Positions 47,521 to 63,541 of a stretch of 64,000 nt of DNA are shown piece after piece. Origin of the DNA: Phalacrocorax aristotelis (taxonomy: Eukaryota > Chordata > Aves > Suliformes > Phalacrocoracidae); assembly GCF_949628215.1 (NCBI RefSeq), contig NC_134310.1:13405401-13469400 (forward strand), written 5' to 3'. Every line of letters starts with the position of its first letter. Within the stretch, counting starts at the first letter, position 1. The notes under the pieces are model-generated. The model was not told the origin of the DNA, did no database searches, and saw nothing but the letters and a program-made list of their open reading frames with translations. The position numbers and the translations under genes were made by a program.

Positions 47521-47532
47521 AAAAGGACTCTT

Positions 47533-48130
47533 GTGGTTCAGCCCCAGTCAGCAACTAAACACCACGCAGCCGCTTGCTCAGTCCGCCCACCCTTCTGGGA
47601 TGGGGGAGAGGATCGGAAGAGCAAAAGGGGAAAAACTTGTGGGTCGAGATAAGAACAGTTTAATAATTAAAATAATAAAACAATGATAATAATATTGATT
47701 ACGATAATAATAGCAATAATGATAATATCATAAAAAGGAAAAGGGAAAAAGGGGAAAAAAACAGAAACACAAACGATACTACCGCTCACCACCCGCTGAC
47801 CAACGCTGCCCGTCCCCGAGCTGCAATTGCTGCCTGCCTCCCCTGGAGAGCTCCTCCTAGTTAACATACTGGGCATGACATTACATGATATGGAATAGCC
47901 CTTAGGCCAGTTTGAATCCGCTCTCTCAGCTGTGCCCCCTCCCCTCCTGGCTTCTTGTGCACCTGGCAGAGCATGGGAAGCTAGAAGAGTCCTTGAGTAG
48001 TATAAGTGCTACCTAACACACAGATGTTTTGGTTGTTGCTATCAACCTTGTTTTCATACTAAGTCCAAAGCACAGCTCTATGCCAGCTGCAGTGAAGAAA
48101 ATTAACACTATCCCAGCTAAAACCATGACA
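47533..48130 (-). repeat. 5' LTR of B6 (L1 type)
   Basis: About 598 bp; AT-rich simple repeat at 47660-47735. Its outer edge abuts the upstream side of the Polinton polymerase relic. Confidence 0.85.
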
Positions 48131-48390
48131 CGCCACCAAAATTATAGGCAAAAAGTGGTGCTATTTAGTTGATTGAAATAACAGCAACAATAATCTCTGT
48201 TTTACTGGGAGTCTCGCATCACTTAGAGCTGTGAGGGACCTCACATGCAGCATTGTTTAGCAGAGCAAAATAACTACATGAAAAACAGGTGTTTTGTGCA
48301 CAGGAACGTCATGTTGACTGACATCTTTTTATTTGAGGATCTGCTATATGTTAATATATGGCTCATCCTCCTATCTGAGGGGAAAAAGGG

Positions 48391-49122
48391 TTGACGGATT
48401 TTTACGCCAAACAACAGTCTTACATATCCAAGACCTGTTTCCTCCTTTTGCATGATGAACACTATTATGGTGTTAAGGAAGTCAGGAAGGTATTTGGGGT
48501 GAGAAATTTTTTTGAGCTTTGTCATACATTGCATAACCAAGGACATAGCTGTAAATATTATTGCCAGCTCTTCTTGTCTTGTCACTGTGTATTTAATTTG
48601 GGAACAAGGATAAGGTGCCCCAGCTGCACACTGCTGTACATATCTGTCTAATGCTTACAGAGGCACAAGGCCATGTCTATCAAAAAGCAAATTAGTTGTT
48701 CGGCTATGGTTTTCTGTGAAAAGTGTAAGGCCTATGTAGAAAACCAGCACAAATATAAAGTCTGGAAGTGAAGAATGTTCTATAAACAGATCTGTCATGT
48801 AAACCAGAACCAGTGTTTCATGCCTGTGATCAAAAATCCACGAGAAGGGTGGGGCTATATTATCTATGACACGGAATGTATGCAGGAAAACAGAACGCAT
48901 ATCCCAAACTACATTTTTGTCATGGAGTTAGCACCAGATGCCCCTTGGGATGAAGGGGCAGAAAGGAAAACTAAATGAGAATGGGAATTTAAGGGGGCCA
49001 CACATCTTGTGGACTTTATTCAGTTGTTTATGGACGCAAAGTTTTGGGGCTACACTTTCCTAGCACATAATGTCAAAGGCTATGATGAAAAGTAGCACAA
49101 TGAGCTGTAGGTAATCCATGAG
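48391..49122 (+). pseudogene. Polinton DNA polymerase B, N-terminal piece
   Basis: All in one frame with about five stops (first at 48649). A Cys/His-rich, zinc-finger-like region (HDEHYYGVKEVRKVFG, then CHTLHNQGHSCKYYC) is followed by the exonuclease domain: Exo I IIYDTECMQ (Asp 48868-48870, Glu 48874-48876) and Exo II AHNVKGYDE (Asp 49084-49086). The CR1 interrupts soon after Exo II. The sequence from 48131 to 48390 probably belongs to the same gene but is too eroded to read. The protein would replicate the element's DNA, protein-primed in this family. Confidence 0.88.
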
Positions 49123-51508
49123 ATTCGTAGAATGCACTCACGATAACTTCTTGAGCCAGGTAATAGACAGCCCTATGCAAGGGGATGCAATACTAGACCT
49201 GATGGTCACCAATGCAAGTGAGCTCATCAGTGACATCAAAACTGGAGGCAGCCTGGGCTGCAGTGATCATACATTGGTGGAGTTCACACTCCTGAGGGAT
49301 ATGGGAAAAGCTAGGAGTATAGTCAGGACCCTACATTTTTAGGAAAGCGGGCTTCCAGCTCTTCAAGGAGGTAGTCAGCAGGACCCCCTGGGAAATGGTC
49401 CTCAGGGGCAAGGGAACAGAAGGGAGCTGGCAGATCTTTAAGGATGTGTTCCATACAGAGCAAGAGCTGTTGGTTTCCAGGTGTAAGACATCAGGCAAGG
49501 AAAGGAAGAGACCAGCATGGCTGAGTTGAGACATGCTGGTCAAACAAAAGAGCAAGAGGGAACTGCACAGGCAGTGGAAGCAGGGCCAGGTATCCTGGGA
49601 AGAGTATAGGGATGCTGCCCGATTGTGTAGGGATGGGGTCAGGAGGACCAAGGCATGGCTGGAGCTGAATTTGGCAAGGGTTGCAAAGAATAACAAGAAA
49701 GGCTTCTACAGGTACGTCAACCAGAAAAGGAAAGTTAAAGAAAGCATACCCCGCACTGATGAACAAGAATGGTGGCCTAGTATCAACAGACAAGGAGAAG
49801 TCTGAGGTACTCAACAACTTTTTTGCCTCAGTCTTCACTGGTAACCTCTCTCTGCTCACCCCTCAAAAGCCAATGGACCACAGGATGGAGACCAGGGGGA
49901 TAAAGTCCTTCCCACTGTAGAGGGAAGATCAGGTTCATGACTACCTGAGGAACCTGGATATACACAAGTCTATGGGACCTGACGAGATGCATCCCAGAGT
50001 CCTGAGGAAATTGGCTGATGTAGTTGCTAAGCCACACTCCATGATATTTGAAAAGTCATGGCAGTCAGGTCAAGTCCCTGGGGACTGGAAGAAGGGAAAC
50101 ATTGCACCCATCTTTAAAAAGGGTAGAAAGGAGGACCTGGGGAACTACCATCCTGTCAGCCTCACCTCTGTGCCTGGGAGGATCATGGAACAGGTCCTCC
50201 TAGAAACTATGCTAAGGCACATGGAGGACAAGGAGGTGATTTGAGGCAGCCAGCATGGCTTTACCAAGGGCAAGTCCTGCCTGACCAACCTCGTGGCCTT
50301 CTATGATGGAGTGACTACATCAGTGGACAAGGGAAGAGCTATGGATGTCATCTATCTGGACTTCTGTAAGGCCTTTGACATGGTCCCCCACAGCATCCTT
50401 CTCTCTAAACTGGGGAGATACAGATTTGATGGGTGGACTGATCGGTGGATAAGGAACTGGCTGGATGGTTGCATCCAGAGGGTAGTAGTCAATGGCTTGA
50501 TGTCCAGATGGAGACAGGTGACGAGTGGTGTCTCTCAGGGGTCCGTACTGGGACCAGTACTATTAAATATCTTCATCAATGACATAGACAGTGGGATCGA
50601 GTGCACCCTCAGCAAGTTTGCAGATGACACCAAGCTGAGCGGTGCAGTTGACACACCAGAAGGACAGGATGTCATCCAGAGAGACCTGGACAAGCTGGAG
50701 AGGTGGGCCTATGAGAACCTCATGAGGTTCAACAAGGCCAAGTGCAAGGTTCTGCAAATGGGTCAGGGCAACCCCCGGTATCAATACAGTCTGGCTGCTG
50801 AAGTGATTGAGAGCAGCCCTGCAGAGAAGGACTTGGGGGTACTGGTGGATGAAAAGCTGGACATGAGCTGGCAATGTGCACTTGCAGCCCAGAAAGACAA
50901 TTGTATCCTGGGCTGCATCAAAAGAGGTGTGGCCAGCAGGTCGAGGGAGGTGATTCTCCCCCTGTACTCCACTCTCGTGAGATCCCAGTTGGAGTACTGC
51001 ATGCAGCTCTGGAGCCCTCAACACAGGAAAGACATGGAACTGTTGGAGCGGGTCCAGAGGAGGGCCACAAAAATGATCCGAGGGCTGGAGCACCTCTCCT
51101 GTGAGGACAGGCTGAGAGAGTTGGGGTTGTTCAGCCTGGAGAAGAGAAGGCTATGGGGAGACCTTATTGCAGCCTTTCAGTATCTAAAGGGGGACTATAG
51201 GAAAGATGGGGGCAACCTCTTTAGCAAGGCCTGTTGTGACAGTACAAGGGGTTATAGTTTTAAACTAAAGGAGGGTAGATTTAGACTGGATATAAGGAAA
51301 ATAATGTTTACTACGAGGGTGGTGGAACACTGGAACAGGTTGCCCAGAGAGGTAGTAGCTGCCCCATCTCTGGAAACATTCAGGGTCAGGTTGGATAGGA
51401 CTTTGAGCAACCTGATCTAGTTGAAGATGTCCCTGCTCACTGCAGGGGGGTTGGACTAGATGACCTCTAAAGGTCCCTTCCAACCTAAACAATTCTATGA
51501 TTCTATTG
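49123..51508 (+). mobile_element. CR1 LINE, 2.4 kb, inserted in Polinton polymerase
   Basis: Begins in the endonuclease C-terminus (VECTHDNFLSQVIDSP, GSLGCSDHTLVEFTLL) and ends with CAATTCTATGATTCTATTG after the GGTTGGACTAGATGACCTC block. 5' truncated. The start is uncertain by about 10 bases. Confidence 0.93.
50293..51420 (+). pseudogene. CR1 reverse transcriptase, long open fragment
   Basis: 375 codons to the end of ORF2: [44 protein letters not shown] (catalytic Asp pair present), [32 protein letters not shown], and the C-terminus ending RTLSNLI. The N-terminal RT is in other frames (49972-50244). Confidence 0.9.
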
Positions 51509-51765
51509 TTTCTTTGTTGTTAGTCAGCTCTGAACAAAAAAATGGATGTGCAATTAAGCCCCCATGGAGGTAACCTCATGTGCATAGAAGTACCCAGCCT
51601 AAATATACATTTCATAGACTCTAAATTTTTACTCATGAGAATAAGGAACCTACACCAAGCTTTGAGTATGGAGGGCTGCAAAAGTTATTTCCCCTCTTTT
51701 TTCAACACTGCTGAAAATCAAAGTTATGTGGGCCCTCTTGCTCAGCCAGAATATTATGGTGTGGT
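51509..51765 (+). pseudogene. Polinton DNA polymerase B, second piece
   Basis: From about 51540: GGNLMCIEVPSLNIHFIDSK, then YFPSFFNTAENQSYVGPL and PEYYGV, typical of Polinton polymerases between Exo II and Exo III. No stop until the ERV cuts in at 51766, between the codons for Val and Asp. Confidence 0.88.
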
Positions 51766-52377
51766 GTCCTGGTTTTGGCTGAGATAGAGTTAATTTTCTT
51801 CCTAGTAGCTGGTATAGTGCTGATGGCACATTGATGTTTTAGTTGTTGTTAAGTAGCAGCCAAGTGTTGCTAAGTAGCACCTGTAGTAGTTAGAGACCTT
51901 TCCAGCTTCCCATGCTCTGCCACTGCACAAGAAGCTGAGAGGGGAGGGGCCACAGCCAAGACAGCTGACCCAAACTGGCCAATGGGATATTCCATACAAT
52001 ATGACATCATCATCAGTATATTAACAGGGGGAGTTGGTGTACAGGGTGGAGCAGTTGTGGATCAGGAATTGGTGGCGTTGGGGTTGGTCTGTGGGTGGTG
52101 AGTAGCTGTATCATGTGTTGTTTGCTTTGGTTGTTTATTCCCCTATCCCCTCCCCCCCCCCCGCCCAGGTTTTGCTTCTCTCTTGTTATTTTTCCTTTTC
52201 ATTGCATAATTATTGTTTTTTTATTACTATTGTTTTATTTTAATTATTAAACTGTTTTTATCTCAACCCACAACCTTTCTCACTTTTACCCTTCTCATCT
52301 CCTCCCTCATCCCACAGTGGGGGAGTGAGCGAGCAGCTGTGTGGGGCTGAGTTGCTGGCTGGGGCTAAACAACAACA
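51766..52377 (+). repeat. 5' LTR of B5
   Basis: TGTCCTGG...AACAACA, 612 bp, most like the L3 type. A possible primer site (TGGTACCAAACATGGGGC, 52386-52403) follows and is several mismatches from the lysine site. Confidence 0.82.
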
Positions 52378-52499
52378 GTCTCTTTTGGTACCAAACATGG
52401 GGCTCAAGGGTTGGAGATAATAACAGCTGCTGGTCACAGCACCATGTTCTCGTTTTTGCAGTTGGTGTTAAAGATTGGTGTTGGTTTGTTTAGTCTGCT

Positions 52500-52814
52500 G
52501 TGATTAGTAACATTTTGCCTAAGAGATTTGTTATACAAACACTCATATTAAGCTTTATCTGGTATTTGGGGTTTTTGCTGAAACTGTTACTGTACTTTGC
52601 ATGCCACCTTGTTGAGGCAATTAGCAATTATACCTCCTCCTCTGAGAGACTTTATATGGAGGAAGTACAGAATAGTATCTTTGCAACTTTGTTCTATGAT
52701 GTCTCTGCCTTTATTAAAACAACCTTTTTGTACCTTGAACATCCTTGGGTTCAAGACAGATATATTTGGAGAATGTATGTTCTTACCTTGGGAAATGTAC
52801 AGAGACACAGATAA
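52500..52814 (+). pseudogene. Hydrophobic leader ORF, B5 copy
   Basis: 104 codons, the most diverged of the four copies, yet open. ISNYTSSSERLYMEEVQN is preserved after two hydrophobic stretches; FLYLEHPWV extends further than in B4. The start lies in sequence without an upstream ATG. Confidence 0.5.
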
Positions 52815-54080
52815 CTGCAATTTGCTGGGGCCTGGCCCATGCGTACCAAGCCCTGCTCAACAGTATTCAGTGCTCCCAAGGGGAAGAGAAGGTCTCTGGA
52901 TTGAAATGCAAAGTGACTGGCACTGTAGACAATCCAGACCTGATGACAGGCACTGCAGCCCCTCAAACCCCCACGACAAGTACTGGAGCTGGCTCAGAGA
53001 ATCAACCTGTACCAGTATCAGTTGCCCCCATACACAAGACGAAATATTGGAAGCAGACGTCAACTCATTTAGAAGGGGATGATGAAAAAGCAGGGTCGTC
53101 ACGGTGAGAGGAGGAAGAAGTCATAAATGAAATAGAGACCACCTGATCCCTGTCCTTGAGCAAGTTGTGAGATAGGCGAAAAGATTTCAGCCATCGTTCA
53201 GGTGAGCACATTGTCACCTGGCTGCTCCGATGCTGGGATAATGGGTCCAGCAGTCTGGAACTAGAGGGAAAAGAAGCCAAACAATTGGGATCGCTTTCTG
53301 GGGAAGGGGGCGTTGACAAAGCAATTGGGAAAAAGAACACAAGCCCTCAGCCTCTGGAGGCGACTCCTGTCCGGAGTGAAGGAAAGGTATCCCTTTAAAG
53401 ATGATGTTACATATCACCTAGGAAAATGGACAACTATGGAGAAAGGCATCCAGTATCTAAGGGAATGAGCTGTGCTTGAGGTGATTTATGGTGACCTGGA
53501 CGATCAACGGTCATCCAAAGATCCAGATGAAGCCGAGTGCACACGACCCATGTGGCGGAAGTTTATACAGAGCGCACCATCTTTGCATGCAGACTTATTG
53601 GCAGTGATGTCCTGGAAAGATGACGAGACACCAACAGTGGGGGAGGTGATTGATAGACTCCAGGATTACGAAACAAATATCTCTTCCTCGCTAGTCTCTG
53701 CTGTTGAGAAACTATCCCAAGAGGTCCAGCAACTCAAAGAAGATATGTCCTGCTCCCCACCTTGACAGAGTAGTGTCTCAGCTGTTAGGAATGAGCGTCC
53801 TTTGGCTCAAAGGAGGGGATACACACCACGGGCCACCCTATGGTTCTACCTGTGTGACCACAGAGAGGAGGGCATCAGGAGGTGGGATGGCAAGCCTACC
53901 TCGAACCTACAGGCACGAGTGCGTGAACTGCAAGGAAGAACAGTCACTCAGGGAGGCTTTTGCAGGAAAACCACTGCTCCAATTTCCAGTGAACAAGTCC
54001 CCAGACAGAGGAGTAGAAGGGCTGATTTTATTTCTAAGTGTAATAGAGAGACTCCTGATTCACATTTACAGGAAGTGAGT
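52815..54080 (+). pseudogene. gag region of B5, broken
   Basis: Compared with B4, the segment encoding WQGMWD...LRRWAPP is deleted. Remaining: short Thr/Ala/Pro repeat (52930-52990), TKYWKQTSTHLEGDDEK, and 53472-53765 (97 codons, SWKDDETPTVGEVIDRLQDY, SSSLVSAVEKLSQEVQQLKE). A WDGKPTSNLQARVRELQ segment lies further on. Confidence 0.58.
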
Positions 54081-54125
54081 TGTGACTGCCATGATCAAGA
54101 CTAGAGGGGCCCTGCCTCCAGCCGG

Positions 54126-54608
54126 GTGGAGGAAAGGGATAGCCAGGCTTACTGGACTGTGTGGATCCGATGGCCTGGCACGTCCGACCCACAGGAGTAT
54201 AAAGCTTTAGTGGACACCGGCGCACAGTGCACCTTAATGCCATCAAACAATATAGGGGTAGAACCCATTAGCACTGCTGGAGTGACAGGGGGATCCCAAG
54301 AGCTAACTGTATTGGACGCCAAAGAGAGCCTCACCGGGAATGAGTGGCAAAAGCACCCCATTGTGACTGGCCCAGAGACTCCGTTCATCCTTGGAATAGA
54401 CTACCTCAGGAGAGAGTATTTCAAGGACCCAAAAGTGTACACGTGGGCTTTTGTTCGAGTTGCCTTGGAGATAGAGGAAACTAAACAGCTGTCTACCTTG
54501 TCTGGCTTCTCGAAGGACCCTTCCGTTGTGAGGTTGCTGAAGGTCAAAGAACAACAGGTGCCAATCGCCACCACAACAGTGCACCAGCGGCAATATCACA
54601 CCAACTGA
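54126..54608 (+). pseudogene. Protease of B5, active site kept
   Basis: 160 codons: ALVDTGAQCTLMPS (DTG intact), GVTGGSQELTVLDA, FILGIDYLRREYF, then the linker to RT ending in a TGA at 54606-54608. Best protease among the ERV-L-like copies; its parent polyprotein is broken. Confidence 0.82.
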
Positions 54609-57600
54609 GATTCCCTGATTCCCATCCATGAACTCATTCACCGACTGGAGAGCCAAGGAGTCATCAGTAAAACCCACTCACCCTTTAACAGTCCCATATG
54701 GCCAGTGCGGAAGTCTAATGGAGAGTGGAGACTAACAGTAGACTATCGTGGCCTGAATGAAGTCACTCCACCTTTGAGTGCTGCTGTGCCAGACATGCCA
54801 GAACATCAATAGGAACTGGAGTCAAAGGCAGCCGAGTGGTATGCCACAATTGATATTGCTAATGCATTCTTCTCCATCCCTCTGGCAGCAGAGTGCAGGC
54901 CACAGTTTGCTTTCACATGGAGGGGTGTCCAGTACACCTGGAATCGACTGCCCCAGGGGTGGAAACACAGTCCTACCATTTGCCATGGACTGATTCAGAC
55001 TGTACTGGAGCAGGGAGAAGCTCCAGAACACCTTCAGTACGTTGACGAAATCATGATGTTGGGCAACAGAGCAGAAGAAGTTTTTGAGAAAGGAGAGGAA
55101 AGAGTCCAAATCCTTCTGAAAGCTGGTTTTGCCATAAAGCAAAGTAAGGTCAAGGGACCCGCACAGGAGGTCCAGTTCTTCGGAATGAAATGGCAAGATG
55201 GACGTTGTCAGATCCCAATGGATGTGATCAACAAAATAGCAGCCATGTCTCCACCAACTAGCAAAAAAGAAACACAAGTTTTTTTGGGCGTTGTGGGTTT
55301 TTGGAGAATGCATATTCCACACTACAGTCTGATCGTAAGCCCTCTCTATCAAGTGACCCGGAAAAAGAATGATTTCAAATGGGGCCCTGAGCAACGACAA
55401 GCCTTTTAACACATTAAACGAGAAATAGTTCATGCAGTAGATCTTGGGCCAGTCTGGGCAGGACAAGATGTAAAAAATGTGCTCTACACTGCAGCCGGGG
55501 AGAATGGCCCTACCTGGAGCCTCTGGCAGAAGGCACCAGGGGAGACCCGAGGTCGACCCCTAGGGTTTTGGAGTCGGGGATACAGAGGGTCCGAAGCCCG
55601 CTATACTCCAACTGAAAAAGAGATTTTGGCAGCATATGAAGGGGTTCAAGCTGCCTCAGATATTGTTGATACTGAAGGACAGTTGCTCCTGGCACCCCGA
55701 CTGCCGGTGCTGGGCTGGACGTTCAAAGGAAACGTTCCCCTCCACACACCATGCAACTGATGCTACGTGGAGTAAATGGGTTGCACTGATCACCCAGCAG
55801 GCTCGAGTAGGAAACCCCAGTCGCCCAGGAATCTTGGAAGTGATTATGGACTGGCCAGAAGGCAAAGATTTTGGATTATCACCAGAGGAGGAGGTGACAC
55901 GTGCTGAAGAAGCCCCACTGTATAACAAACTGCCAGAAAATGAGAAGCAGTATGCCCTGTTCACTGATGGGTCCTGTCGCCTTCTGGGAAATCACTAGAG
56001 ATGGAAGGCTGCTGTATGGAGTCCTATATGACAAGTCACTGAAACTGCTGAAGGAGAAGTTGAATCAAGCCAGTTTGCAGAGGTAAAGGCCATCCAGCTG
56101 GACTTGGACATCACTGAACAGTATCGTGGTTTAGCCCCAGTCAGCAACCAAGCATCACACAGCCGCTTGCTCACTCCCCCTGGTGGAACGGGGAAGAGAA
56201 TCAGAAAAGTACAAGTGAGGCAACTCAGGGTTTGAGATAGACAGTTTAATAGGTAAAGCAACAGCTGCTCGCAGAAGCAAAGCAAAACAGGGAATTCATT
56301 CGCTACTTCCCACAGGCATGCAGGTGTTCAGCCATCACCAGGAAAGTAGGGCTCCATCATGTGTAACAGTTACTTGGGAAGACTAACGCCATTACTCCAA
56401 ACGTCACCCCCTTCCTCCTTCTTCCCCCATCTTTCTATACTGAGCATGACGTCATATGGTATGGAATATCCCACTGGTCAGTTTGGGTCTGCTGTCCTGG
56501 CCGTGCCCCCTCACAGCTTCTTGTGCACCTAGCAGAGCATGGGGAGGTGAAAAAGTCCTTGACCAGTCTAAGTGCTACTTAGCAACAAGTAAAACATCTC
56601 CACATTTTCACCACTGTTTCCAGAAAAATCAAAAACATAATCCCATGCTAGGTACTATGAAGAAATTTAACTCTATCCCAGCTGAAACCAGGACAATGGG
56701 AAAAGTGGCCAGTGCTCTGTCTCTATACTGACTCCTGGATGGTGGCAAATGCCCTGTGGGGGTGGTTACAGCAGTGGAAGCAAAGCAACTAGCAGCGCAG
56801 AGGCAAAGCCATCTGGGCTGCTGCCTTGTTGCAAGATATTGCTGCCTGGGTAGAGTACCTGGTTGTGAAAGTACGTCATGTGGATGCTCACGTCCCCAAG
56901 AGTCGGGCCACTGAAGAACATCGAAACAACCAGCAGGTGCATCACTCTCCTAAGATTGAAGTGGCTCAGGTGGATCTGGACTGGCAGCATAAGGGTGAAT
57001 TATTTCTAGCTCGGTGGGCCCATGACACCTCAGGCCATCAAGGGAGAGATGCAACATACAGGTGGGCTTGTGATCGAGGGGTGGACTTGACCATGGACAC
57101 TATTGTGCAGGTTATTCATGAACGTGAAACATGCGCTGCAGTCCAGCAAGCGAAGCGGGTAAAGCCTCTGTGGTATGGGGGACGATGGCTGAAGTATAAA
57201 TATGGGGAAGCCTGGCAGATTGACTATATCACACTACCAAAAACCCACCAATGCAAGCACCATGTGCTTACAATGGTAAAAGCAACCACCATCTGTCTGG
57301 AAACATATCCTGTGCCCCATGACACCACCCAGAACACTATCCTGGGTCTTGAGAAACAAGTCCTGTGGCGACATGGCACCCCAGAGAGAATTGAGTCAAA
57401 CAATGGGACTCATTTCCAAAATAACCTCATAGACACCTGGGCCAAAGAGCACGGCATTGAGTGGGTGTATTGCATCCCCTATCACGCGCCAGCCTCTGAA
57501 AAAATTGAATGGTACAATGGACTTTTAAAGACTACACTGAGAGCAATGGGGGGTGGAACATTTAAACACTGGGATACACATTTAGCAAAAGCCACGTGGT

Positions 57601-57776
57601 TAGTACACACATGGGGATCTGCCAACCGAGCTGGCCCTGCCCAGTCAGAACCGTTATGTACTGTGGAAGGGGATAGAGTCCCTGTAGTGCATGTAAAAAG
57701 TGTGTTGGGCAAAACCGTCTGGGTTATTTCTGTCTCGGGCAAAGGCAAACCCATTCATAGGATTGTTTTTGCTTGA
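54609..57776 (+). pseudogene. pol: pol of B5, broken and split by an LTR
   Basis: RT: GEWRLTVDYRGLNEV, TAG near 54810 (same site as B4), ATIDIANAFFSIPL, then YVDE (55038-55049) in place of YXDD, and TAA 55407-55409 shared with B3 and B4. RNase H (YALFTDGSC) is near 55960-55980. After the LTR, the integrase (56826-57776, 316 codons) is open: QIDYITLP, ESNNGTHF (second catalytic Asp now Asn) and KIEWYNGLLK. Confidence 0.88.
56122..56694 (-). mobile_element. Solo L2-type LTR inserted in B5 RNase H
   Basis: About 573 bp, inverse of 2393-2940, ending CAGGACA next to ATGGGAAAAGTGG, where pol resumes in step with B4 (21470). The left terminus is mutated. Confidence 0.85.
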
Positions 57777-58292
57777 GGACTTGGGTGCCCTTGGTGGGTG
57801 ATGGGGGAGAGTGGAGGAGTTGGGTGTGTACCTTAAGTGGATTTGATTTTGGTTGAAAACAGCCAATGAACTGAATAATATGCTGTTAATTGCCGTATAA
57901 TGTTGGATGTCGTCACTACTACGGTTGTTGTCTGCCATATCAATGGTATCATGGTGGGAAACTCCCAAATTAATAAAATAGACTTTTCATTGAACTAAGC
58001 AACGTGCAGCGGTGATGGAACAAGGACTGGTTTCAGCATGCAACAATCCAGCACCACACACGGCGTCTCTGAAAGAATTGTACAATAGATGGAATCCGAA
58101 GTCATGGACTAAATTAACTTGCTGTATGTTTCTGTGGACATTTTACAGGGGTGGTCCATAGACTTGGGGAATGATAAATGAAATCTGTATATTCTATTAA
58201 AGGATGAGAAGGCGGGTAGGGGTTACTGTAGTTGTATTGGATAGTATGGGACCTGAGCATGATGTAAATGATATGGAGTAAGGGGTGGATAC
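57777..58292 (+). other. 3' non-coding tail of B5
   Basis: Matches the tails of B3, B4 and B6. No env frame. Confidence 0.7.
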
Positions 58293-59021
58293 TGTCGTGG
58301 TTTTAGCTGGGATAGAGTTAATTTTCTTCACTGCAGCTGGCATAGTGCTGTGCTTTGGACTTTAGTATGAAAACAAGGTTGATAACACACAGATGTTTTG
58401 GGCTCTTGCTGGGTAGTGCTTATACTAGTCAAGGACATTTCTAGCTTCCCATGCTCTGCCAGGTGCACAAGAAGCTGGGAGGGGCGGGGGCACAGCTGAG
58501 AGAGTGGATTCAAACTGGCCAAAGGGATGTTCCATATCATCTAATATCACACCCAGTATGTTAACTGGGAGGAGCTGTCCAGGGGAGGGAGGCAGCAATC
58601 GCGGCTTGGGAACCAGCAGTGTCAGTGGGTGGTGAGCGGTTGTATCGTTTGTGGTTTTGGTTTTTTAATTTTTCCATTTTCCTTTTTCTGATATTATTGT
58701 TATTATTTTTATTATCATAATCATTTTTATATTATTTTATTCTAATTATTAAACTGTTCTTATCTCAACCCACAAGTTTGTTGGGTTTTGTTTTGCTTTT
58801 GTTCTTCCGATTCTCTCCCCCATCCCACAGGGGTGGGCAGAATGAGCATGTAGCTGCATAGTGTTTAGTTGCTGACTGGGGCTGAACCACAACTGTCTTT
58901 ATCTCAACCCATGAATTTTCCTTTTTTTTTTTTTCTGATTCTCTCTCCCATCCTATTGGGGTGGGGGTGTGAGTAAACAACTGTGTAGTGTTTAGGTGCC
59001 TGCTGGGTTAAATCACAACAG
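58293..59021 (+). repeat. 3' L1 LTR of B5 plus an extra LTR tail
   Basis: 58293-58893 is an L1 LTR (TGTCGTGG...ACCACAAC). From 58894 the R/U5 part of an LTR repeats (TGTCTTTATCTCAACCC...AATCACAACA), so the end carries one LTR and the last 127 bp of another. Confidence 0.75.
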
Positions 59022-60451
59022 GTGGACAATATAATGCCTGAAGAGAAAAATCAGTTCTTGGCATGGCACACAGGGAGAAGATTTTTGACTTGCAAAAAGA
59101 ACTAAGTTGCTATTGCCAGCAAGATGTAAAAATTTTGAGGGAGGCCTGCCAGTTTTACAGGAATGAGATTATGGTCATGGCTGGTTGTACATTCTGTGAG
59201 AAAGAAGGCAGGGAAAAGGTGAAGGTTTATTCCTGTATAGATCCCTTTCAGTGTACTGCACTGGCCTCTACTTGCATATCCACTTACTAGTTTATGTTCC
59301 TTAAACCTAATATGATTTCACTCCTTCCTCTGGATGGTTATCGTCAGAGAAAAAAAAGAGATATTCAACCCTTTCTATTCAATGGTTTCTGTATCTGGCT
59401 ATTCAAATCAGTCATGCATTACAAGGTGGTGAATATCAAGTGGGATCCTACTTCTTGGATGGCTATGCAGTCATTGATGGGGTGCTGACAGCTTCTGAAT
59501 TTGATGGGTGATTTTTCCATGGCTATACTGAATGCTACCATGAAATAGATGGGAATCCTCTGGTGGGGCCACCTTTGGCTATTTGTATTACACAATGCAA
59601 CAAAAGATGGCCCACCTAAAGAGAGCAGGTTTTAACATCAGAACTATATAGGAGTATGAGTGGGTTGCTATGATGAAATCAGATGGGGAGCTTGCAGAGT
59701 TCTTAGGACCAGACTCCCCACATCACTGGTCCTCAGAGATTAACTTTTTGGTGGCAGGACAAATGCCATTTGTCTGCATTACAAAGCAGCCGCTGATGAA
59801 AAGATACATTACTATGATTTTACTAGCCTCTATCCGTTCATCAACAAAACAAAAAACAATACCCCATGGGGCACCCTGAAGTTATTTTTGAGAATTTCGA
59901 CACCCTGCCTGGCCTACTTTGGGATGTTCAAAGGAAAGGTGTATCCACCTCATAGGCTCTTTTTTGCTTGTGCTGCTTCACCATGGCATATGCATGCCTA
60001 GAGCTTTAGGATCTCTTAGATGCCCTGCAAGACCGTTGCCTTTATTGTGACATGGATTCTGTGATATTTGTGAGTCATCCAGGGGACTGAAACCCCTGGC
60101 TGGGTGACTATTTAGCCAAGTTTCCACCAGGTGAGCACATCATGGAATTTGTGTCATCAGGGCCCAAATCCTATGGCTACTTGCAGTCTGGAGGAAAATG
60201 TTGTTTAAAGGTTGAAAGCATCCCTCTAAATGCAACAAAACAAAAAATAAATTTTGAGGCACTGAGGGATTTCATGTTGGATTACAGCATGTATCCACAC
60301 AGTGACAACCTTAAAAAGATCATGATAGAGTAGCACTCTATAATCAGGACCAAGCAGAAGTGGGCGACTGAAACCAGGCCCACCCACGCAGAAGGTGGTC
60401 TATGACAAAAGAGTACTGACTAAAAATTTTAAAAGCTTCCCCTATGGTTTT
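59022..60451 (+). pseudogene. Polinton DNA polymerase B, C-terminal piece
   Basis: Continues from 51765. Exo III-like SCYCQQDVKILREACQ (near 59110-59145), a conserved GSYFLDGYAVIDGVLTASEF segment (near 59432-59492), palm motif A YYDFTSLYPFINK (Asp 59816-59818), motif C YCDMDSVIF (60043-60069; one usual Thr is Met), and a C-terminal KSFPYGF ending at TGA 60449-60451. At least five frameshifts and several stops. Both catalytic aspartate motifs remain readable. Confidence 0.9.
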
Positions 60452-60459
60452 TGATCAAG

Positions 60460-61118
60460 GGCATGTGCCGGAAGCACCCCTTTTCTGCTATTCTGGCAGG
60501 GCCTAGCAACTATGGGAAAAGTTATTTTGTAAAAAGTCTTTTGGAGAATGTCAACTGTTTGCTGTATGTTATGCCTGAGAATATTGTGTGGTGTTACAGT
60601 TGTTGGCAGCCTTTGTATTGAGAACTGCTCTGTAAATATCCTTTTATCAAATTTGTGGAGGACTTACCTGAAAGTCTCAGTGATAACCTTTTATTTTCTC
60701 CTAATAAAGTAAATTTGGTTGCAATCAATGATTTGATGAACTCTGTGAGAGCTATGAAATTGAGAAAGCTTTTACTAAGTATGTGCATCACAGGAATCTC
60801 AGCATCCTGTACATTGTCTAGAATGTTTTTTATCAGGGTAAAAAGAGCTGCACCATCACTCTCAACACAAAATATATGGCGCTAGTTCAGAACCCCTGAC
60901 ATAAGCTCCAGGTTGCATCCCTAGCCAGGCAGATGTAACCTGGCAAGGCCTGGTTTGTTTTAGAACCATTTGAAGATGTTACGCAAGTACCCTATGGGTA
61001 CCTGGTTGTTGATTTAAATGCTTCTGTGCTGTGGGCTTTTAGGCTAAGAACTGGTCTCTTCCCACCAGAGCGGCCTGCCATTTACATATTGGGAAAAAAG
61101 ACTAGTGTTCAGAAATAG
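60460..61118 (+). pseudogene. Polinton packaging ATPase (FtsK/HerA-like)
   Basis: Starts a few bases after the polymerase stop with MCRKHPFSAILAGPSNYGKS; GPSNYGKS is the Walker A loop (about 60503-60526). A Walker B-like VNLVAINDLM follows near 60710. Downstream are a FYQGKKSCTITLNTKYMALV-type segment and, after shifts, VPYGYLVVDLN and LRTGLFPPE, typical of the family's C-terminus. One stop near 60618 and shifts near 60755. Would pump DNA into capsids. Confidence 0.82.
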
Positions 61119-61194
61119 AGAGTACATGTAGCAGTTGCTTCTGAAGACAAACGCCTTAATAATGAAAGCTAAGAGAAAGGAAGATGGTGGAAGG

Positions 61195-61483
61195 CATTTA
61201 TTGCACAACATCATATAGTATGGAATAACCCTTATCCCTTTGGTCAGTTTGGGTCAGCTGTCCTGGCTATGTCCCCTCCCAACCTCTTGCCCACCCCAAG
61301 CCTACCGGCCTTTGGGAGTGGGGAGGGTTGGAGAGACAGCCTTGATGCTGTGCTGTCACTGCTCAGAAGTAGCCAGAGCATTGGTGTGTTATCATCAACA
61401 CCTTTCTAGCTACAAATACAAAGCACGGCACTATGAAGGCTGCTGTGGGGAAAGCTAACTCCATCCCAACCAGACCCAATACA
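61195..61483 (-). repeat. ERV LTR fragment inside the Polinton
   Basis: Minus strand from TGTATTGGGTCTGGTTGGG; similar to the U3 halves of the L1-L3 LTRs (GGTCAGTTTGGGTCAGCTGTCC on the plus strand). The 3' part is missing. It truncates the capsid gene to its right. Confidence 0.7.
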
Positions 61484-61844
61484 GTGGGACAGAGGTAGCA
61501 GTTGTTGCTCTGGATTATCAGTTGGTCCCCCAGCTTAATGTCCAGCTGGCTAAAATTAGAGGACAGTGGGTAATTCACAAGGCCCATGGCCTCACCAGCA
61601 TCCAAGATTAGACCTGTCAGCTTTTACAATCTTGCAGCAAAGGTACAGCAAGGTGTTGTTCAGATCTTTGTGATCTTCCCCATTCTCAGCTATGAAAAAG
61701 TCCAGAGGTGTAGACTCTAACAGTGGAAAGTGGAAGCACCTCAATAAACAGGCCTTTCTCAGTGCTGATGTGCACTGGGGACACTTCAAACAAATCCAGC
61801 TTGGGTTTGGTACATTCTTCTGAGCAGCCATGAATGAAAGCCAT
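61484..61844 (-). pseudogene. Polinton capsid protein N-terminus (F54H12.2-like, probable hexon-like major capsid)
   Basis: Start ATG at 61844 on the minus strand: MAFIHGCSEECTKPKLDLFE. Then in shifted frames LDFFIAENGEDHKDLNNT, LYLCCKIVKAD, GLVNYPLSSNFSQLDIKLGD and LIIQSNN. This is the family widely labelled F54H12.2-like, found beside pX and penton-like genes in Polintons. Cut after about 115 residues by the LTR fragment. Assignment as major rather than minor capsid is inferred from gene order. Confidence 0.75.
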
Positions 61845-61849
61845 CCTTT

Positions 61850-62261
61850 TAAAAATATATTTCCTTTTCTAGATGTAGAACAAGACACCTTTCTCTGGGT
61901 TATCCATTTCTTTTGCACTACTCGGCCTGGCTTGTTCTTTTTCTTCTTCTTGTCCTGGTCAGACTGTTGTCTGGCACTCCTGATTTGCTGGCATTTCCAA
62001 CTTTTCCATGGCAACCTTGGAAACATGTCCAAACACGTTTTCCGCAATATCTTGAGCGGCACTTTTAACGTGTGGCTTAACAATTTTCAAACTCCTTTTC
62101 AAAACCTGGATGGCCTTTTTGAGCAGGCTACAGAATATATCTCCGACACCTGCACCATCCATCAGAAGGACGTCTTGAAAACTAAGACGACCATTACCAA
62201 CCTGGGCTCTATAACAACTCACATACAAGGAAGGGTCCCCATAATTTTTTACTACTACCAT
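61850..62261 (-). pseudogene. Polinton pX-like core protein
   Basis: ATG at 62261; 100 codons open to 61959, then a shifted basic tail (KKKKKNKPGR). NYGDPSLYVSCYRAQVG followed by GAGVGDIFCSLLKKA and KPHVKSAAQDIAENV resembles the adenovirus pX/mu-like protein of adintoviruses: a Gly-rich turn, an amphipathic stretch and a basic end. It sits between the two capsid genes as expected. Confidence 0.72.
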
Positions 62262-62274
62262 TTTGGCGGGGTTT

Positions 62275-62850
62275 TTTTAAAACTATCAGAGGTCCGTGTA
62301 GAGGTAGAGCAAGCTAAACCCTCTGGTGATGTCTGCCAAAAAGGGAACTTTCTTAGTGGCAACACCCAGAGAAGCCCCCAAAACATGTGCCAGATCCCCA
62401 GCTGTAGAAAAAAATGTAAGGCTTTTCATCCATCTTGAGCTTTGATTTCCTTATGATGGGGTCATAGACCAGGCCCACTGGTGGAGAGTAAACAGCTGAA
62501 GCTTTCTTGTGGAGGTTAAGAAGATGGTTCATACATTCCATCAACATGAAGAGGGACAGATAGCCTTTCTGCAAAGTACACTGCCATATCTTGTCCTGCA
62601 GTGCTATTTCAAAGATGGTGACTTCATTGATGTTATTCCACCAGTGCAGGTACTGTATTTACGCCACACTCACCTCCCACTTGCCTGAGAGCTCGAGGGA
62701 TCTCACCAGCTGTACGGTAAAGTCTGAGCTGGTGTTTTGTGGGAAGATTCTGGTGCTGGCATTGCTAGGTACCATTATGTATAAGCCCGTCTGCCATCCT
62801 TCCCCTTCCCTCTGCTCCACTGCTGTTTTCCCAAAAGCAGGTTCATTCAC
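62275..62850 (-). pseudogene. Polinton penton-like (minor capsid) protein, partial
   Basis: Minus strand: LYIMVPSNASTRIFPQNTSS and FTVQLVRSLELSGKWEVSVA, then in other frames HWWNNINEVTIFE and LVYDPIIRKSKLKM. These match the N-terminal domain of the Polinton single jelly-roll/penton-like family. Only about 190 residues remain, so the C-terminal half appears deleted before pX. The plus-strand ORFs of 202 and 114 codons here are antisense shadows. Confidence 0.68.
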
Positions 62851-63091
62851 CCAGTGTGCAAAACGCCAAACTACACACAGAGTGGAGGTATTTTATTCAG
62901 TTCATTTTTGCACAAAGATGGGTGCTAGGTGGTAATTCCACAAAGCTAACACACTGCACTAAGAAACTACAAGGCATTTATAGAGTTAAATGTGTCAGTA
63001 ACAGCTAATATCCACACCCCCCAGCTAATCAGTGGTTAGTTTATTTCTCACTTATCGTAAAGGTACAGCTCCCTTTAAATTTACCACCCAT
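62838..63091. repeat. Direct repeat, left copy (LTR-like)
   Basis: About 250 bp repeated at 63290-63541. Begins near GTTCATTCACCCAGTGTGCAAA; shared core GCAAAACGCCAAACTACACA. On the minus strand it has TATAAA and AATAAA-like signals in LTR order. Confidence 0.7.
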
Positions 63092-63289
63092 GCTCAGAGA
63101 GTAAGGGGCTTATTTGAGTAGGGGGTTTTCTGGCCTATGGGAGTGATTTTTAGTATTATAATGAGGATAAGCGCCTAGTGGGTGCTTAGTTTTAGTTCTT
63201 ATCAACATGCATAAAAATCCCAATTAGTTGTCCTCCTTGACTTCATACTTTATTGCCCAGCTTTTGGTGTCGTCTTGTTATCCTGAAAA

Positions 63290-63541
63290 GTGGGTTCGTT
63301 CACCTGGTGTGCAAAACGCCAAACTACACACAGAGCAGAGGTATTTTACTAAAGTCATTTTTGTGCCAAGATTGGTGCTAGGTGGTAACCCACAAAGCTA
63401 GCACCCCACACTGAGAAACTGCAAGGCATTTATACAGTTAAATATGTCAATCACAGCTAATATTCACATGCCTCAACTAATAATTGGTTAATTTCTTTCT
63501 CACTTGGATGTAACAGTACAGCTCACTTTTAATTTATCATG
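63290..63541. repeat. Direct repeat, right copy (LTR-like)
   Basis: Diverged copy of 62838-63091, same orientation, about 200 bp of other sequence between them. Could be the remains of two LTRs of an unrecognised ERV. Confidence 0.7.

Follow-up and report, generated by a model that had tools for sequence, protein, structure and literature searches.

The presence, in what is very probably a bird genome, of neighboring stretches that resemble parts of a viral polymerase, a packaging ATPase and capsid proteins raises the question of whether they are the remains of a single endogenous virus and in what state these have survived. Within the window, i.e. the entire stretch of 64,000 nucleotides that was analyzed, the segment from 48.18 to 62.82 kb contains polB- and packaging-ATPase-like pieces on the plus strand, followed by penton-, pX- and hexon-like remnants on the minus strand. 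These genes form two converging modules, polB and ATPase on one strand and hexon, pX and penton on the other, as in the gene order of vertebrate Mavericks. With a probability of roughly 0.94, we interpret the locus as a dead endogenous Maverick (Polinton; a beta-adintovirus-like virus), which has kept parts of five genes, every one of them with a broken frame. A tblastn comparison was made between 21 test pieces, selected by us as likely coding frames and partly overlapping in different frames, and nine previously matched stretches of this genome; every piece found a relative at a cut-off of E<=1e-3 (77 alignments), as opposed to none of the 21 on reversed DNA. A first-pass annotation had proposed a Polinton/adintovirus relic with virion genes, a view upheld by the paralogs in the same genome, the gene order and the turtle relatives of the hexon-like gene in a sister copy. 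The start that it had proposed, at position 48131, proved to be the edge of an LTR; polymerase-related DNA begins at about 48177, where the match is weak (E=5.7e-4).

The polB gene extends over three blocks on the plus strand. The first (48177..49090), to which the first-pass annotation had assigned the zinc region, Exo I and Exo II, has a broken frame and relatives in the genomic stretches L031, L032, L033 and L034, with its first part also represented in L018. The second (51518..51764), assigned to the linker, matches positions 551-803 of L032, directly after block 1, and the third (59023..60451), said to comprise Exo III, motif A and motif C, again has a broken frame and is represented by paralogs in L030-L034. 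The Pfam profile DNA_pol_B_2 matches the motif-A piece at 59744-59998 (E=7.7e-7; 28.8 bits at a cut-off of 25.8), and the sequences P0006 and P0007 match the window at block 3, with a best E value of 2.5e-45; a search of PDB sequences with the motif-A piece returned only a ribosomal protein (E=0.43). The neighboring genes point to the protein-primed subtype of family-B polymerases.

The blocks are separated by two large inserts. One of them, 2.4 kb in length (49091..51517, left edge approximate; plus strand), includes a long reverse-transcriptase frame at 50245-51420 and belongs to a type of non-LTR retrotransposon that we take to be CR1. The other, a nested ERV of 7.3 kb with LTRs (51765..59022, plus strand), begins at an LTR edge that is common to other LTR copies in the window. 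In the paralog at C36:45.77 Mb (L032), blocks 1, 2 and 3 directly follow one another without either insert, and we therefore consider both CR1 and ERV to have been inserted later; the copies at C36:53.48 Mb (L034) and C3:112.62 Mb (L031) likewise lack both. At the CR1 junction, homology to L032 stops at window position 49069 and restarts at 51518, the two ends being 15 bp apart in L032, and at the ERV junction it stops at 51764 (L032 803) and restarts at 59023 (L032 801). The resulting 3-base overlap is the only candidate for a target-site duplication at the ERV, and none was convincing at the CR1. Dating by LTR divergence (51765-52381 versus 58293-58898, K=0.39) was abandoned, as these LTRs may not be one pair. 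The claim that the polymerase lies in three blocks split by two later insertions was thus borne out, with the correction that there is a further gap between motifs A and C, near 59.94-60.0 kb, where about 0.6 kb that is present in L030, L031 and L032 is absent from the window.

Adjoining polB is a packaging-ATPase-like remnant (60463..61115, plus strand) with a Walker-A-like stretch near 60490-60530, which has relatives at C1:134.34 Mb (L027) and in L030 and L032, coming after polB in the latter two as well. The gene modules are separated by a repeat (61173..61496), which on inspection is probably a solo LTR; a reading frame that spans it is found again at C35:11.4806 and 13.381 Mb, apart from pieces of the element. 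On the minus strand, there follows a hexon-like (F54H12.2-like) remnant with a broken frame (61497..61844), related to L026:8601-8927 and L017:977-1126, whose gene we presume, from the gene order, to encode the major capsid protein. Farther along L026, again on this strand, the hexon-like region of the copy on C1 shows 59-74% identity to turtle proteins (Chelydra, Malaclemys, Mauremys and Pangshura), all but one of the four bearing the name F54H12.2-like. The next remnant (61872..62261, minus strand), which we take from its position to be pX-like (PW), has relatives in L017, L026 and L033, and the last (62289..62820, minus strand), presumably penton-like (minor capsid) on the same grounds, also has relatives in the genome. 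The position of both fits vertebrate Mavericks, in which penton and PW/pX stand between the integrase and major capsid genes. Its piece at 62356-62658 has 13 matches in the genome, the window itself among them, and returned no relative in a protein search whose length rule hides full-length relatives. The ATPase-, penton-, pX- and hexon-like pieces lie at the places given in the first-pass annotation, but the hexon-like gene is reduced to its N-terminal part (61.50-61.84 kb) and the penton-like gene lacks its C-terminal part.

Pfam was run on 20 pieces, ten of them all from the window and the other ten including two from it, and named only the polymerase piece, and none of the ATPase, penton and pX pieces, above its cut-off. 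Matches to PPV_E1_C (E=0.028) and Adeno_IVa2 (E=0.15), both with the ATPase-like piece, and to DDE_Tnp_ISL3, PDDEXK_4 and HEAT_EF3_N were all below the cut-off and set aside. At E<=0.01, integrase-like, PZ-like and mid-hexon queries matched nothing in the window or in its flanks (30 kb to the left, 20 kb to the right), a search that very diverged remnants could escape. The integrase test relied on one query, which we assume to be integrase-like and to which Pfam gave no match; this query has 17 matches in other copies, on C1, C2, C26, C35 and C36. Because repeats fill the expected place of the integrase gene, its absence is best read as a loss. The element is bounded on the left by an ERV LTR (47523..48131, minus strand), one of a family of LTRs in the window, several of which have a common end, and on the right by two adjacent copies, 82% alike, of a repeat (62824..63539). 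The flanks, proposed earlier as the place to look for integrase and terminal repeats, yielded no integrase match and no recognizable terminal repeats, both edges being later LTR-type repeats. A single piece served as the query in five scans of viral contigs and a two-row alignment in a sixth; no relative was found, but these scans say little because they required near-exact words.

Polymerase or penton remnants are found at eleven other places in the genome, with the C19 cluster counted as one and the inverted copy excluded. The copy at C1:134.33 Mb contains penton, pX and hexon and then ATPase on the other strand, i.e. the order of the window in opposite orientation, and three sister copies (C36:51.60, C36:52.02 and C35:11.51 Mb) carry integrase-like remnants directly before penton. 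The element is dead and represents one relic among a scattered family. The contig containing the window, C35, is probably the W chromosome, and C36 is probably the Z chromosome. C35 harbors a cluster in which the window element is joined by remnants at 13.25 Mb and between 11.42 and 11.51 Mb, and by an inverted half copy. We consider it plausible, if at somewhat less than even odds, that the several C35 copies go back to one insertion multiplied on that chromosome rather than to separate insertions. Consistent with this idea, of the nine copies compared, the two others on C35 are nearest to the window (JC distances of 0.20 and 0.24 versus 0.30-0.46 for the other seven, in a comparison that omitted the third C35 remnant, at 11.48 Mb), and an 11.4-kb inverted repeat contains the right part of the element; however, in the regions examined, the copy at 11.51 Mb shows one half of the element and the one at 13.25 Mb the other. 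It is less likely than not that C35, as the W chromosome, holds its cluster of Maverick relics as a refuge for DNA-virus fossils, multiplied by inverted and segmental duplication on the W.

The possibility that the host has kept one of the genes (exaptation), which would then still make a protein, is very slight. Some frames of about 100 amino acids are still open (e.g. 62356-62658), and the third codon position shows the most differences in eight of nine comparisons with sister copies, the pooled counts being uneven (863, 841 and 1000 over 3538 codons, in comparisons that all include the changes of the window itself and thus lack independence). However, all genes are broken, the third-position skew is only mild and not significant in any single comparison (lowest p=0.079, threshold p<0.05), and a mild excess of this kind is also expected from divergence during virus life and from the choice of alignments by protein similarity. 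Still less credible is a chance juxtaposition of separate, unrelated viral or transposon fragments, which would suit surroundings crowded with nested retroelements but is largely refuted by collinear copies with the same order and strands, at C1:134.33 Mb and, for polB followed by ATPase, in L032 and L030.

For a single, dead Maverick, the following history may be proposed. A Maverick would have entered the germ line of one of the bird's ancestors, lost its function after integration and decayed through stops, frame changes and deletions, which may have removed about 0.6 kb of polB, the center of the element with most of hexon and probably protease, PZ and PM, and the integrase end. Retroelements would then have broken up the element: CR1 and ERV are seen inside polB, and the repeats observed between the modules and at both edges may likewise belong here, the former probably as an LTR. 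Mavericks are thought to use polB for protein-primed replication, the ATPase for packaging, hexon and penton for the capsid and integrase for insertion, and the living element would have worked in the same manner. At present, it most likely has no role.

Avian Mavericks have been described previously in a degraded state, among them two loci in kiwi that hold seven of the eight core genes (Nino Barreat and Katzourakis, 2021, PMC8097293), and the locus agrees with them in its genes, gene order and decay, whereas it differs in retaining parts of five genes, in being split by CR1 and ERV, and in that it may lie on the W. In chicken and turkey, Polinton remnants are found on chromosomes 2 and Z, with polB on Z and integrase and capsid on the autosome (Guizard et al., 2016, PMC4992247); similarly, the genome studied here carries polB remnants on the probable Z, C36, and integrase-like remnants on C36 and four further contigs. 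There is also a likeness to turtle Mavericks such as the adintovirus of the Terrapene box turtle (a beta-adintovirus), as turtle proteins resemble the hexon-like remnant on C1, but the box-turtle element is reported to be intact (PMC8097293), whereas the window element is dead. Given the loci in kiwi and the remnants in chicken and turkey, the importance initially attached to an avian copy with many virion genes was overstated, and the locus is a further specimen of the known avian Maverick relics. According to the published picture (PMC9683012), Mavericks were present in the ancestors of birds, and those known to date from avian genomes seem degraded; the locus leaves this view unchanged. Together with the eleven other remnant places, this well-resolved locus enlarges the record of Mavericks in birds, and its nested CR1 and ERV supply a relative order of events.

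The element in the window is a real but dead Maverick, as the first-pass annotation had recognized. Its polymerase pieces are found where they had been placed, in three blocks on the plus strand (48177-49090, 51518-51764 and 59023-60451), and the piece bearing motif A (59744-59998) matches DNA_pol_B_2 with E=7.7e-7. When used as a query against the genome, the motif-A piece yielded six matches among 13 candidates scored, corresponding to the window, C35:13.25 Mb, C3:112.62 Mb and three sites on C36. In a comparison with nine stretches of the same genome, all 21 pieces covering the whole element had a relative at E<=1e-3 on forward DNA, as against 0/21 on the same DNA reversed; since the partly overlapping pieces were chosen as likely coding frames after the matches were known, and the stretches had all been matched beforehand, this control addresses chance matches and does not represent an independent sample.

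The annotation had further proposed a single polymerase gene split by a later CR1 and a later ERV, a reading upheld by the sister copies. In L032 (C36:45.77 Mb), blocks 1, 2 and 3 are consecutive, with the ATPase pieces next. At the ERV site, the homology of the window to L032 ends at 51764 and restarts at 59023, joining adjacent L032 bases with a 3-base overlap, and at the CR1 site, it ends at 49069 and restarts at 51518, the two ends being separated by 15 bp in L032. Two other polymerase-bearing copies, L034 (C36:53.48 Mb) and L031 (C3:112.62 Mb), likewise lack both inserts, indicating that one gene was interrupted later by both. The proposal nevertheless has to be amended, because L030, L031 and L032 carry ~0.6 kb, located between motifs A and C, that is absent from the window, revealing an additional internal loss in its polymerase gene.

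As also proposed, virion-gene pieces follow the polymerase: ATPase-like pieces at 60463-61115 and then, with ascending coordinate and on the opposite strand, hexon-, pX- and penton-like pieces, the hexon remnant being a putative one named from gene order. In the copy at C1:134.33 Mb, penton, pX and hexon pieces share a strand and are separated by ~2.8 kb from the ATPase on the opposite one, whereas the corresponding gap measures 0.4 kb in the window and is filled by a repeat, which argues that the element's centre has been lost. The lost part comprises most of the hexon and, probably, the protease, PZ and PM as well. The C1 copy also has, between hexon and ATPase, a 134-aa open frame (L027:919-1320), possibly PZ by its position, which matches nothing in the window or in its flanks. 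In vertebrate Mavericks, as described in PMC8097293, module 1 (polB, ATPase, PM and PZ) and module 2 (integrase, minor capsid, PW, major capsid and protease) both face the centre. In yet another copy (L033:1396-1752, at C36:13.9 Mb), a polymerase remnant abuts a pX remnant of the opposite strand, a deletion that fused both modules.

The penton piece (62356-62658) gave 13 matches among 18 candidates, of which one is the window itself, another its inverted copy and two are rows for the single locus C35:11.51 Mb. Five penton remnants are clustered in a 65-kb stretch of a small contig (C19:893193-958579), each with 48% identity to the window's piece and a 130-aa frame with one TGA, and two of them, when compared, proved to differ at a single residue; this cluster looks like a segmental duplication carrying a Maverick relic. 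A putative integrase-like frame at C36:51.60 Mb had no Pfam match. It produced 17 matches among 23 candidates scored, counting the query itself and some loci in two rows, and directly precedes a penton remnant at three sites. An integrase in the flanks, for which a search had been suggested, was not found, with no match to this query at E<=0.01 in the window, 30 kb to its left or 20 kb to its right.

The right part of the element lies inside an inverted repeat of ~11.3-11.4 kb that begins at 61781 and extends beyond the window end, its other arm running from C35:13404334 down to C35:13392955. The arms share 96.5% identity overall, rising to 99.96% in the first 2220 bp, and the left one stops within the hexon remnant, against ERV sequence. 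A young duplication, gene conversion or an assembly error could each account for this arrangement. Elsewhere in the window (6000-45600), there are several ERV pieces in both orientations; as they are 93-98% alike among themselves, they are probably much younger than the Maverick.

JC distances between the window and nine sister copies range from 0.20 to 0.46, the shortest being those to the two other C35 copies included in this comparison, which did not cover the third C35 remnant (11.48 Mb). Birds accumulate ~2e-9 substitutions per site per year; at this rate, the copies would have parted roughly 50-115 million years ago, a figure that is not an insertion date. The third codon position was the most changed in eight of nine comparisons, with a skew that was significant in none of them (lowest p 0.079). 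Summed over the nine copies (3538 codons), differences at positions 1, 2 and 3 numbered 863, 841 and 1000, counts that are uneven, yet not independent, since the window's own changes are common to all nine. Such a pattern fits mostly neutral decay after integration, with a constrained phase indicated during the virus's life. Outside this genome, the C1 copy's hexon piece matches five proteins (59-74% identity), four of them from turtles and three of these named F54H12.2-like. A polymerase frame from L030 matches two proteins among 28 candidates, both of which also match block 3 of the window (best E=2.5e-45). Scans of viral contigs, sensitive only to near-exact words, returned no relative.

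The window occupies C35:13405401-13469400 in an assembly of 1.279 Gb in 352 contigs, with C1 at 219.2 Mb, C36 at 78.9 Mb and C35 at 31.3 Mb. Its size and its content of CR1 elements and ERVs are consistent with a bird genome, in which C36 is probably the Z and C35 the W chromosome. The W chromosome appears, in the portion of PMC8097293 covered, only within a reference about platyfish, and with the literature on this point covered in part, we claim no novelty for a W-linked avian Maverick copy. Degraded bird Mavericks have already been described, according to PMC8097293, PMC9683012 and PMC4992247; Maverick relics in birds are a known kind, to which the window adds one more.
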